Assembly: GCF_900096955.1 (NCBI RefSeq) | Contig: NZ_FMYL01000003.1 | Span: forward strand, 124,001-188,000 | Direction of reading: 5' to 3' | Source of the DNA: Acinetobacter boissieri | Lineage (GTDB): Bacteria; Pseudomonadota; Gammaproteobacteria; Pseudomonadales; Moraxellaceae | Length of the DNA: 64,000 nt | Shown here: positions 40,321 through 43,623 of the stretch, one piece after another | Layout: the number at the start of each line of letters is the position of its first letter | How positions within the stretch are numbered: the stretch's first letter is position 1 | Notes under the pieces: model-generated | What the model was told of the DNA's origin: nothing | Seen by the model: the letters and a program-made list of their open reading frames with translations, nothing else | The model's database searches: none | Made by a program: the position numbers and the translations under genes

Positions 40321-41340
40321 TTAAGTCGATAAATCTGCATAAACTTGCAGTACTAATTGCTCTGTTTTTTCCCAACCTAAACAGCCATCAGTCACTGACT
40401 GACCATACGTCATATTGCTAGAAATTTTCTGAGCACCATCGACCAAATGACTTTCAACCATTACACCTTTGACATGTGTTACAGATTTTTCTGCAATAAT
40501 TTGCTTTAATATTGCAGGTTGTTTTAAAGGGTTTTTACCGCTATTTCCATGGCTACAGTCAATCACCAACGCTGGCATACGTTCGCCCACGACATCTTTA
40601 ATCGTTTGCACTGATTCTGCATCATAGTTATTACCCGTATTTGCCCCACGTAAAATTAAATGTGGGAATGGGTTACCTAAACTACTTTTAAGTACAGGCC
40701 CACCATGCTGACCTAATGCAAAAAAATCATGTTTTGCAGCAGCAGATTGTATTGCATCTAAAGCAATTTGAACTGAACCATCTGTACCATTTTTAAAACC
40801 AACTGCAAAAGGTAGACTACTTGAAATTTCACGATGAATTTGTGATTCAGAAGTTCTTGCGCCAATGGCACCCCAAGTGATCAAATCATCAAAGTAACCA
40901 ATTGCCATAGGGTTAAGAATTTCACTCGCAATGGGTACGCCCGTTTCAGCCAATTTAAGATACAGCGCTCTAGATTTTTCAATCCCTTGTTTTAAGTCTG
41001 CACTCTCATCTAACATTGGATCATACAAAAAGCCCTTCCAACCCACTGTTGTTCTTGGTTTTTCAATATACGCGCGCATAACTATGAAAATATGATCTTT
41101 TACTTCTAGTTGTAATTTTTGTAATTTTTTTGCGTACTCTACAACGGCAATCGGATCATGAATAGAACATGGTCCAATAATCAACAATAATCGAGGATCC
41201 TGACCTGCCAAAATGGCATCTACAGTATGTCTATACTGGGCAATTTGTGATTTAAGTACACTAGAAAGTGGCAAATCTTTTTTAAGTTGCTGTGGTGTAG
41301 GCAGTGTTTTTTCTTGAATGGGTGAAACAACAGTATTCAT
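40321..41340 (-). CDS. aroG: 3-deoxy-7-phosphoheptulonate (DAHP) synthase, class I
   Basis: DAHP synthase joins phosphoenolpyruvate and erythrose-4-phosphate in the first step of aromatic amino-acid synthesis. The 339 residues carry class I motifs: LLLIIGPCSIHD, MRAYIEKPRTTVGWKGF, GARTSESQIHRE, PFPHLILRGANTG and VIDCSHGNSGK. The length fits AroG/AroF/AroH. Isozyme feedback type is not evident, but the upstream region has two leader peptides rich in Phe and Tyr codons and a terminator, suggesting control by these amino acids. The symbol aroG is a family choice (aroF is possible). AAAGGA lies 6 bases before the ATG. Confidence 0.95.
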   Translation of the reverse strand: MNTVVSPIQEKTLPTPQQLKKDLPLSSVLKSQIAQYRHTVDAILAGQDPRLLLIIGPCSIHDPIAVVEYAKKLQKLQLEVKDHIFIVMRAYIEKPRTTVGWKGFLYDPMLDESADLKQGIEKSRALYLKLAETGVPIASEILNPMAIGYFDDLITWGAIGARTSESQIHREISSSLPFAVGFKNGTDGSVQIALDAIQSAAAKHDFFALGQHGGPVLKSSLGNPFPHLILRGANTGNNYDAESVQTIKDVVGERMPALVIDCSHGNSGKNPLKQPAILKQIIAEKSVTHVKGVMVESHLVDGAQKISSNMTYGQSVTDGCLGWEKTEQLVLQVYADLST

Positions 41341-41374
41341 TATATGTCCTTTTATGGGGGTCGAAACCCTTAAT

Positions 41375-41467
41375 TTATTTCTGGGAAGATCGTCTTTGAT
41401 GCTGATTATCTTGGGCTACGTAAAATTTGCTATAAAAAAAGTAAAGGTTAAAAAGCTGGTCAGTCAT
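41375..41467 (-). CDS. Second aromatic-rich leader peptide upstream of aroG
   Basis: A 30-codon frame starts with ATG (41465-41467) preceded by TTGGAGA at an ideal distance of about 7 bases, and ends at TAA 34 bases before the aroG ATG. It contains FNLYFFYSKFY at residues 6-16, that is four Phe and three Tyr in eleven positions, followed by a polar Gln/Arg/Ser tail. It lies after the attenuator hairpin, immediately upstream of aroG. Composition and place strongly suggest a sensor of Phe/Tyr-tRNA charging. A small GGGT-TTCG-ACCC stem follows its stop, just before the aroG ribosome site. Confidence 0.7.
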   Translation of the reverse strand: MTDQLFNLYFFYSKFYVAQDNQHQRRSSQK

Positions 41468-41490
41468 GTGAAATCTCCAAAATATAATAT

Positions 41491-41526
41491 AAAAAAAACC
41501 TGATTGGTATTTGCCCAATCAGGTTT
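41491..41526 (-). terminator. Attenuator terminator in the aroG leader
   Basis: On the minus strand a 12-base-pair stem (41515-41526 with 41496-41507) and a 7-base loop are followed by a T8 run (A-run at 41491-41498). It lies between the first leader peptide and the second. Upstream AGGTT (41542-41546) can pair with AACCT (41521-41525) in the left arm, offering a competing antiterminator. Confidence 0.85.
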
Positions 41527-41573
41527 ATAAATGTGATGAGCAACCTATCTTTTGCCCATACGCATAAGGGCAG

Positions 41574-41630
41574 CTATCTAAAGTGCCAAAAGTATACGTA
41601 TGAAAAAACAGATTGCGTCAACGAGGTCAT
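41574..41630 (-). CDS. First aromatic-rich leader peptide of the aroG attenuator
   Basis: The 18-residue peptide MTSLTQSVFSYVYFWHFR ends in TAG. Its second half has Phe, Tyr, Tyr, Phe, Trp and Phe within nine residues (9-17). A weak GAAG ribosome site precedes the ATG. It lies about 30 bases after a promoter and is followed by a stem that overlaps its stop (GGCA 41584-41587 with TGCC 41569-41572) and then by an intrinsic terminator. This is the classic layout of amino-acid attenuation as in pheA and trp leaders. Confidence 0.7.
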   Translation of the reverse strand: MTSLTQSVFSYVYFWHFR

Positions 41631-41663
41631 GTATAGTCTTCAAAATAAATATGATCTCATTTT

Positions 41664-41692
41664 AAAATACGCTATTTTATTTATGCTGACAA
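41664..41692 (-). promoter_or_regulatory. Promoter of the aroG leader transcript
   Basis: TTGTCA (41687-41692) and TATTTT (41664-41669) are 17 bases apart on the minus strand, with the start expected near 41657, about 27 bases before the first leader ATG. Confidence 0.55.
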
Positions 41693-41709
41693 GGGTTAAT
41701 CATAAAATA

Positions 41710-41744
41710 ATGTCACTGTATACGTTGTGCTATAACAGTGACAT
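41710..41744. terminator. Hairpin after ppiD, possible terminator
   Basis: ATGTCACTGTATA (41710-41722) pairs with TATAACAGTGACAT (41731-41744) with one bulge. It is 14 bases after the ppiD stop, but the T-run on the minus strand is short and interrupted. Confidence 0.5.
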
Positions 41745-41757
41745 CAATACAAATGAA

Positions 41758-43623
41758 TTACTTAATTTTTGCAACTGATTTTAAGTAATCGATATAATCT
41801 GCCAACTCTTGCTCACCACGAAGTTGTTGATAAGCCTTTGTTGCTTGCTGGACTTGCTCTGGTGTCAGCTTACTAAAAGCATCTCTATCTACTTTAGATA
41901 CAGCAACGATCACCAATTCATCAGACAAATCTGCTGTACCTACTGACCACATACCCGCTTTAGGTACAGGCTGAGTAAATGCAACATTCGCAATATCTTT
42001 TCTCAAATTCTGACGACTAAATAGCGCAGGTTTTTCGAATTTAATATTACTTCTAGCAAGGACTTGTGTCGCAGGCTCTGTTTTAAATGCTTCAAGCGTG
42101 GTAGCAATTTTTGCTGTTGCAACTGCTGCAGCTTTTTTATTGAGCACAGTAGTTTTAATTGCATCTGTTGCTTGCGCTAAAGTTTGCAGACCTTCAGGGT
42201 AATAGTTACGTACTTTCAACCACAATGTTTCACCATTCGCTAATGTAATACTGGCTGAAATATTACGATCACCATTTTTAACTTCATTATTAAATAGTTT
42301 TGCTTTTACAGCAGGCTGACTCAAATACGGATTACTGGTCCACAGAGTCGCATTTTTAGCACTCTGAATGGTTGCAGTTTTTACTTGTTGCGTAATCACA
42401 TCTAAAGCATCTGCACTCACTGCAGCATCGTTTAGTCCATTTACTGCATCTGTATATGCATTTGCAAGTTTACTTTTCTCCAAACTTGCTTGAAGCTGTG
42501 GTTTTTCTTGCTCAAACGACGCTATTTTTACAGCATCTGTTTTTACATCAATAATATGGTAACCGAAGTTTGTTTTTACAGGTGCTGATACTGTATTGTC
42601 TTTTAATAATTTAACTGCATCATCAAACTCTGTCGAACCTAATGTTCCTACTTGATAACCTGCAATTAAACCACCTTTAGCTTTAGATGTTGGATCTTCT
42701 GAATACTGTTTCGCAGCATCTGCAAAAGATAACCCTGCTTTAATTTTGGCTTCAACATCATTGACTAACTTCAGTGCATCTGCATCAGTACGCGTGTCTT
42801 TAGTAATCAAAATATGACGAACTTCTTTTGTCGCATTATTCTTTTGCGCATCTACATACTGTGTATATGCTTGTTGCAGTTCTGCATCTGTTATTGGCAT
42901 CGTTTGCGCAAACATACTTGGCTTAACAACCACATAATCTACATCTAGAGATGCACTACGTCTAAACTCATTTTTATGCTTTTCATAGTAATTGGCAATA
43001 TCTTGATTCGATACTGTGATTCCTTTTTTATACTCATCTAGCTTTATACTTGATAAATATATCTCTCTTTGCTCAGATTGTAAGTTTACAAAGTTTTCAA
43101 CACCTTGCTTACTGGTTAGAGCATAACTTGATGCTGTTGCCGTAAGCATTTTTAAAGCATGATCTTGCTTTAAATTCGCCAATAGTGCTTCTTTCGTAAT
43201 ACCACGACTACGTAAATAGTTCCCGAATACTTCATTACTAAACTTGCCATTGACTTGAAAATCAGGCAACTGAGACAACATTTGTACAAATTGAGTATCA
43301 CTCATTTGAATGCCCAATTTGCCTGCTTGTTGTAACAGTAATGTTCGAGCAATTAAAGTATTAAGCGCCGACTCTCTAATCACATCTGTATTCAAAAGAG
43401 ATTCATCTCCTTGAACATACTGTAAATACTGTTGTTGATAAGATTTTACCAACTCATCAAGCTCTTTATTTGAAATATCCTGACCATTGACTTTTTTAGC
43501 AACATCTCCCTTGTTTGATCCACTAAAATAGCCTTCAATACCCACAAGCGCCAAAGGAATTAGGAATAAAACAAGTAATACAATACCTAACCAACCTTTA
43601 ATCAGTTTACGAAACGATTCCAT
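41758..43623 (-). CDS. ppiD: Periplasmic chaperone/peptidyl-prolyl isomerase PpiD
   Basis: The 621 residues have a short cytoplasmic tail, one membrane anchor (about 12-34), a SurA-like N-terminal chaperone domain starting VAKKVNGQDISNKELDELV, a parvulin domain around 262-355 (EVRHILITKDTRTDADA, YSEDPTSKAKGGLIAGY, TNFGYHIIDV) and a C-terminal chaperone portion. PpiD is held at the inner membrane near SecYEG and helps newly exported proteins fold. It lies downstream of hupB, the same order as the E. coli hupB-ppiD pair. Confidence 0.93.
   Translation of the reverse strand: MESFRKLIKGWLGIVLLVLFLIPLALVGIEGYFSGSNKGDVAKKVNGQDISNKELDELVKSYQQQYLQYVQGDESLLNTDVIRESALNTLIARTLLLQQAGKLGIQMSDTQFVQMLSQLPDFQVNGKFSNEVFGNYLRSRGITKEALLANLKQDHALKMLTATASSYALTSKQGVENFVNLQSEQREIYLSSIKLDEYKKGITVSNQDIANYYEKHKNEFRRSASLDVDYVVVKPSMFAQTMPITDAELQQAYTQYVDAQKNNATKEVRHILITKDTRTDADALKLVNDVEAKIKAGLSFADAAKQYSEDPTSKAKGGLIAGYQVGTLGSTEFDDAVKLLKDNTVSAPVKTNFGYHIIDVKTDAVKIASFEQEKPQLQASLEKSKLANAYTDAVNGLNDAAVSADALDVITQQVKTATIQSAKNATLWTSNPYLSQPAVKAKLFNNEVKNGDRNISASITLANGETLWLKVRNYYPEGLQTLAQATDAIKTTVLNKKAAAVATAKIATTLEAFKTEPATQVLARSNIKFEKPALFSRQNLRKDIANVAFTQPVPKAGMWSVGTADLSDELVIVAVSKVDRDAFSKLTPEQVQQATKAYQQLRGEQELADYIDYLKSVAKIK

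Follow-up and report, generated by a model that had tools for sequence, protein, structure and literature searches.

Transcription attenuators of the pheA and trp type, described in E. coli and other gammaproteobacteria, share a leader peptide carrying the regulating codons, a set of alternative hairpins and a terminator with a U run, all ahead of an amino-acid biosynthetic gene. In Bacillus subtilis, the at (rtpA) operon joins a T box to the leader peptide rtpLP and senses tRNA charging twice, and in the translational attenuators of erm and cat a ribosome stalled on a leader ORF opens the start by refolding the RNA. DAHP synthase, the enzyme encoded at the locus described here, catalyses the first common step to phenylalanine, tyrosine and tryptophan. 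For genes of this enzyme, an excerpt of PMC1173090 gives predicted attenuators, taken from the Merino database, before AroAI-alpha-Y > tyrA in Vibrio, and for Shewanella, an excerpt of PMC2659441 has RNA motifs predicted at aroF and at aroH. In an excerpt of PMC5343134, attenuation of pheA and trp is taken as established in gammaproteobacteria.

We analysed the leader of an aroG-type DAHP synthase gene in a 64,000-nt stretch of Acinetobacter boissieri DNA (the window). It has the shared parts of the pheA and trp attenuators and differs from them in that it would control DAHP synthase, combines Phe, Tyr and Trp codons and alternates among five segments. With the Vibrio cases it has in common a predicted attenuator before a DAHP synthase gene; the lineage and the operon are different, the table in the PMC1173090 excerpt is on tyrA, and none of the five mentions of Acinetobacter in that paper falls in the attenuator table. 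A second aromatic ORF follows the attenuator, and we put at roughly two in three (about 0.68) the probability that two aromatic leader peptides in series control this one gene, judging from sequence comparison and modelled folds. The features are as follows.

41664-41692, minus strand: probable promoter, TTGTCA-N17-TATTTT (TTGTCA 41692-41687, TATTTT 41669-41664)
41574-41630, minus strand: L1, the first leader ORF, MTSLTQSVFSYVYFWHFR; ATG at 41630, 18 codons, stop TAG at 41576-41574
41552-41573, minus strand: first hairpin a:b (UGCCC...GGGCA), directly 3' of the L1 stop
41538-41545, minus strand: segment c (GGUUGCUC), which pairs with b or with d of the terminator 5' arm
41491-41526, minus strand: intrinsic terminator, 12-bp stem and T run, with segment d (GGGCAA) within its 5' arm
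41375-41467, minus strand: L2, the second leader ORF, MTDQLFNLYFFYSKFYVAQDNQHQRRSSQK, between terminator and aroG; Shine-Dalgarno (SD) GGAG at 41478-41475
41358-41369, minus strand: short hairpin GGGU-UUCG-ACCC between the L2 stop and the aroG SD
40321-41340, minus strand: aroG-type DAHP synthase, 339 aa (PF00793 and TIGR00034); SD AAGGA at 41351-41347

An initial annotation of this region had proposed a classic attenuator upstream of DAHP synthase, and most of its parts hold. The gene matches PF00793 with 241 bits and TIGR00034 (aroFGH) with 398.8 bits against a cut-off of 173.2, confirming the identity given to it. The 18-residue aromatic open frame is L1, in which F, Y or W fills six of the nine residues preceding the final Arg. 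The 12-bp terminator with T8 was recovered by a scan of both strands of 41200-42000, which returned two terminator-like sites where shuffles gave 0.3; its 12 pairs span 41526-41496 and its T run 41498-41491. The promoter hexamers and their N17 spacing are also present, but their score by itself is at chance level (4 promoter-like sites against 3.6 expected; p 0.30 for L001, the window's own locus in our numbering of compared upstream regions). Across loci, the best promoter-like pair has its -10 end 30-39 nt 5' of L1 in 46 of 58, and likewise in the window. Further upstream, at 41743-41704 on the minus strand, the inverted repeat TGTCACTGT...ACAGTGACA lies 3' of the preceding gene, which we take to be PpiD-like; a T-rich stretch comes after the repeat, and the two are perhaps the terminator of that gene.

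The hairpin region required two adjustments to that annotation. The stem said to overlap the L1 stop starts just past the stop codon, and the competing AGGTT:AACCT pairing proved to be one part of a larger conserved antiterminator, GGUUGCC:GGCAACC, which in the window reads UUGCUC:GGGCAA. The genus-wide segments are a (UUGCC, 3' of the stop), b (GGGCAA), c (GGUUGCCC), d (GGCAACC) and e, the terminator 3' arm; a, b, c and d are almost invariant across relatives. Folding of the 170-nt leader gives -51.3 kcal/mol, better than all 200 dinucleotide shuffles (z -6.2). In 58 sequences, 92.7% of cells were paired for a:b (2 of 9 pairs changed on both sides), 96.0% for b:c, 94.9% for c:d and 100% for the terminator over ten pairs (two changed on both sides), compared with 20-54% in slid controls. 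Pairings b:c and c:d are mutually exclusive, bearing out the competing structures expected from the initial annotation. Cells paired and covariation score exceeded all 500 shuffles in each comparison; the count of pairs changed on both sides was matched by 96, 190 and 36 of 500 shuffles, so conservation supports the L1 structure more than covariation does.

An aromatic L1 is kept in all 110 upstream regions examined (frequent form ...AYFYFWQFR), and a check for hairpins lacking conserved aromatic codons thus turned up nothing against the attenuator. Because L1 codes for Phe, Tyr and Trp, the label Phe/Tyr first given to the attenuator was too narrow and is better written Phe/Tyr/Trp. Among 33 sister pairs, L1 shows 50 synonymous and 54 nonsynonymous differences.

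We then simulated ribosome position in the 110 loci by folding transcripts that end at the terminator loop, using a footprint of -12..+14 nt. The mean probability of c:d was 0.51 without a ribosome, 0.85 with one at the start of the aromatic run and 0.81 at Trp; it was down to 0.48 when the ribosome reached the last aromatic codon and to 0.42 when it reached the L1 stop. Going from stop to run start, 78 of 110 loci gained more than 0.1, 1 lost more than 0.1 and 31 stayed within 0.1. A larger footprint gave 0.90 versus 0.44 (77 loci up, 1 down) and a smaller one 0.67 versus 0.40 (61 up, 9 down); the window itself gave 0.67 at the run start, 0.31 at Trp and 0.00 at the stop. Equilibrium folds of the full-length leader had no ribosome-dependent switch, with a terminator mean of 0.69-0.76 at every ribosome position, a mean that includes loci such as L056 at 0.00 in all states, probably from wrong terminator coordinates. 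With the full-length terminator insensitive to the ribosome, the decision must be kinetic, made during transcription, as in known attenuators. In these simulations a ribosome stalled on the aromatic codons favours the antiterminator, the right sign for attenuation.

The conserved L1, the exclusive hairpins and the ribosome-position folding together support the classic reading, and L1 very probably acts by transcription attenuation in response to Phe, Tyr and Trp tRNA charging. The ribosome would translate the Phe, Tyr and Trp codons of L1 and thereby sense charged tRNA. Under plenty, a ribosome at the L1 stop would cover a, leaving b to pair with c and the terminator to form, and transcription would end; under starvation, a stall on the aromatic run would let a:b form, c would pair with the terminator 5' arm and the polymerase would read through.

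To place the element in its lineage, we searched 149 genomes of the genus and found the gene family in all; upstream regions from 110 of them were examined for L1 and L2, and the remaining 39 include six without a close gene match. A covariance model of the L1 element, built from 58 upstream regions, matches 169 of 175 Acinetobacter genomes. The element is absent from G029-G032, G077 and G128, whose best gene matches (E 2.2e-96 to 4.3e-79) are at paralogue level or weaker; these six genomes are filed in the genus and have no close match to aroG. The window's own genome has one strong model match at 84.4 bits, followed by the next at 20.8, and two genomes (G014 and G558) carry a second match each. 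The element lies 184-308 nt upstream of the DAHP synthase match in the 52 loci measured, which include A. baylyi, A. nosocomialis, A. pittii, A. haemolyticus and A. nectaris; the closest relative locus, L002, has 89% identity. A DNA-pattern scan blind to the gene returned at least 118 loci. Among the matches listed, 85 are from Acinetobacter and 33 from elsewhere, and DAHP synthase is contained in 81 of the 85 and in 0 of the 33; for the other Acinetobacter loci (L157, L189, L213 and L232), we read the gene as lying beyond the sequence stretch examined.

At the level of the family, a search of 149 genomes from 16 genera gave a gene match in 142, and the matching non-Acinetobacter genomes had one match each, those listed being at 45-48% identity, the level of the paralogue. 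An order-wide search with the model matched 8 of 293 genomes: two from Acinetobacter, scoring 84 and 91 bits, and six others with weak scores of 28-38 bits. Those six, read individually as candidates for a wider family, were taken as unrelated terminators. Among the six, L268 carries an overlapping ORF in which YRFYEF occurs; the 1500 nt downstream contain no start of a 100-aa ORF on that strand. In 20 upstream regions of paralogous DAHP synthase genes (5 from the genus, 15 from other genera), the L1-L2 layout was absent by eye; ORFs passing the aromatic filter occurred in 8 of the 20. At L128, the paralogous DAHP synthase gene of the element-less genome G077, a TTG-started ORF, MIISIKFFQFFFVFHDIVIHI, lies 86-152 nt upstream and may be a chance product of a T-rich stretch. 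Upstream of the window genome's own prephenate dehydratase gene (L274), two GTG- or TTG-started ORFs pass the 4-of-11 filter and end at least 254 nt upstream; they are unlike L1 or L2 and were rejected as the same device. Two chorismate-binding genes (L275 and L276) have no upstream ORF passing the aromatic filter. By eye, a 12-codon ORF with one Trp codon, MKSSQVFRWRYS, precedes the trpE-like gene of L275.

The second ORF, L2, was absent from the initial annotation. An aromatic ORF occupies its position in all 110 upstream regions examined, with ...NYSYFSNFYWFYFSQ... as a frequent form, and in the window seven of the densest eleven residues are aromatic. When a start codon and an SD were required, and shuffles lacking a qualifying ORF scored zero, L2 outscored 200 dinucleotide shuffles in 57 of 58 loci (p<=0.01), its best 11-residue window holding a mean of 6.9 aromatics against 0.2 in shuffles. 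Core residues are well kept across the 110 loci, near duplicates included (column 14 Phe in 109/110, column 26 Trp in 100/110, column 28 Tyr in 96/108). In L001-L007, L050, L064, L068, L073, L090 and L102-L105, the residues differ and aromatic density is kept.

The stop of L2 falls near the aroG SD by three layouts (direct, across a hairpin, and by overlap), with residues drifting and aromatic density staying. By raw count, every locus whose gap exceeds 24 nt (99 loci, L001 included) has a hairpin of at least 4 bp; L108 is outside these counts and by eye has the usual hairpin. Most often the hairpin begins 6 nt after the L2 stop (85 of the 99) and ends 1 nt ahead of the SD (73 of the 99). The gap itself ranges from 25 to 45 nt; less the hairpin, stop and SD are 3-11 nt apart (mean 7.1, 99 loci), and the window, at 5 + 6 = 11 nt, has the longest distance of the set. 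An alignment of 45 main-group relatives, of which L001 is not one, shows both-side changes at five of the six pairs of the hairpin. Alternative layouts occur at L007, L050, L064, L068, L073 and L090, L102-L105: four hairpin-less loci have the SD 5 nt after the L2 stop, at L007 the aroG SD overlaps that stop, and the L2 of five others extends 25 nt into the aroG gene. Those five loci have the most divergent aroG (53-57% identity). The aroG AUG is 56-105 nt (median 89) downstream of the last aromatic codon of the L2 run, too far away for a ribosome stalled on the run to cover it.

Folding of the L2-aroG region fits a sensing L2 on average across the genus. RNAalifold on 45 sequences predicted UUCAU:AUGAA (L2 against the aroG start), UAUUU.AGC:GCU.AAAUA and GGUUU:AGACC together with the hairpin, with 83.9%, 95.0%, 89.8% and 94.4% of cells paired, respectively. 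The whole structure has 91.8% of cells paired against 25-48% in slid controls, and the controls reach 2-8 both-side changes versus 5 observed. In the 45 sequences no pair of helices P0, P1 and P2 around L2 changed on both sides; the hairpin alone has such pairs. With a ribosome on columns 13-30, the aromatic run, the aroG start became cheaper to open by 1.7-2.4 kcal/mol on average over 99 loci; a ribosome on earlier L2 columns saved 1.0-1.9 kcal/mol and one on columns 34-45 added 0.4-0.8, with medians mostly smaller than means. Since early codons lower the cost too, opening is not specific to the aromatic run; closing is specific to later L2.

We compared the real codons of 51 related loci with 12 synonymous recodings each. 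The real codons kept the start closed by 0.9 kcal/mol more with L2 empty or the ribosome late and by 0.03 with it stalled (Wilcoxon p ~5e-4, 1e-4 and 0.9 for empty, late and stalled, to be taken as guides only among related loci). Ranked among its own recodings, the real sequence passed the 0.9 mark in 14 of the 51 loci (mean rank 0.66); the late-minus-stalled difference exceeded 1 kcal/mol in 24 of 51, was zero or negative in 9 and was above the null mean of the locus in 37. In the window, opening costs were 2.9 (empty), 3.0 (stalled) and 3.1 (late) kcal/mol, with L002-L006 similar and L004 at 4.2, 3.1 and 3.9. The modelled folds thus support switching by L2 on the genus average and hardly do so in the window's own clade, where L2, if a sensor, would need to act through the ribosome at its stop, or otherwise. 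Base-pairing between the aromatic codons of L2 and the aroG SD was rejected as a candidate general mechanism (mean z -0.6 over 99 loci; -9.8 kcal/mol for own pairs versus -9.1 across loci); some loci do fit it (L052, z -3.7).

The geometry of the L2 stop equally suits a serious main rival of opposite sign, in which L1 is the sole regulator and L2 is a coupled upstream ORF whose terminating ribosome re-initiates at aroG. The stop lies near or past the aroG SD in every layout, and with a simulated ribosome on the final codon of L2 the aroG start becomes a little easier to open (mean -0.6 kcal/mol), both as coupling would have it. Yet aroG has an SD of its own (AAGGA in the window), starvation would reduce aroG expression and so work against L1, and coupling leaves the aromatic richness of L2 amid changing residues, beyond shuffles in nearly all loci compared, without explanation. 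We consider coupling the less likely reading.

Less probable again is that L2 is no sensor and codes for a small protein with a function of its own, such as modulating DAHP synthase. Its core, SYFSNFYWFYF, is well kept in the main group, and 33 sister pairs hold 146 nonsynonymous against 101 synonymous differences, where a rough neutral ratio would be 1:3 in favour of nonsynonymous. However, divergent lineages keep the aromatic density without the sequence, lengths range from 26 to 55 aa, and the L2 peptides scanned matched nothing in Pfam (two peptides) or NCBIfam (three). Synonymous choice is biased as well: Tyr is TAT 78 times and TAC 3 times at one column and TAC 76 and TAT 20 at another, Arg is AGA in 85 of 87 and Leu CTC in 84 of 95, compared with TAT 180 and TAC 88, AGA 40/366 and CTC 42/1109 in aroG. 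This bias indicates that the RNA is under selection too. Hardly credible at all is a terminator without a switch, with aroG transcribed from a start downstream of it: promoter hexamers at chance level in the single genome would allow for it, but L1 and segments a-d are kept genus-wide upstream of DAHP synthase.

We return to L2 as a second aromatic sensor, acting at aroG translation with the same sign as L1, for which we see the case as evenly poised; the opening seen from early L2 codons and the window's long stop-to-SD distance weigh somewhat against it. Read-through transcripts would carry L2, with its stop near the aroG SD. Under plenty, ribosomes reaching the L2 stop would keep the aroG start closed, the occlusion being by the terminating ribosome itself, with RNA folding helping in part of the genus; under starvation, ribosomes would stall on the L2 aromatic run and the aroG start would be left open. 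The full combination, in which one charged-tRNA signal is checked twice by two leader peptides, at transcription and then at aroG translation, is by a shade the more tentative proposal.

The tandem resembles, by analogy, the layout of the B. subtilis at operon, which likewise has tandem sensing, transcription then translation, and a leader stop near the SD of the gene. It differs in that the at operon has a T box as its first stage, responds to Trp only and controls a different gene; here the first stage is L1, an ORF read by the ribosome. With erm and cat it would share a stalled ribosome that opens the start by refolding, but the inducer here would be low tRNA charging, and folding supports this in part of the genus only. 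To our knowledge, the at operon is the one analogue of two serial ribosome-read sensors. An Rfam search of the leader at E up to 5 found no leader-family match and no T box; a Qrr small RNA hit was rejected as a chance match below cut-off (23.7 bits against a gathering threshold of 50), and two further weak matches were unrelated. Attenuators of gammaproteobacteria were surveyed in comparative studies of 2001 and 2004, and L1 may appear there. Open-access literature, judged by title and abstract start, yielded no paper on this leader. In excerpts of PMC2965389 and of PMC11472050 (the A. baumannii RNA interactome), the main text does not mention aroG, and an excerpt of PMC12218461 describes a different bacterial upstream ORF.

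If the two-sensor reading is true, Acinetobacter would gate entry into aromatic biosynthesis by two ribosome-read sensors in series, which would also explain the presence of the L2 leader ORF in every upstream region examined. The locus would then offer a clean system for the benefit of a second sensor, be it a steeper response, less leak or a different amino-acid sensitivity, and L1 and L2 would be added to genome maps where they are too short for gene calling.
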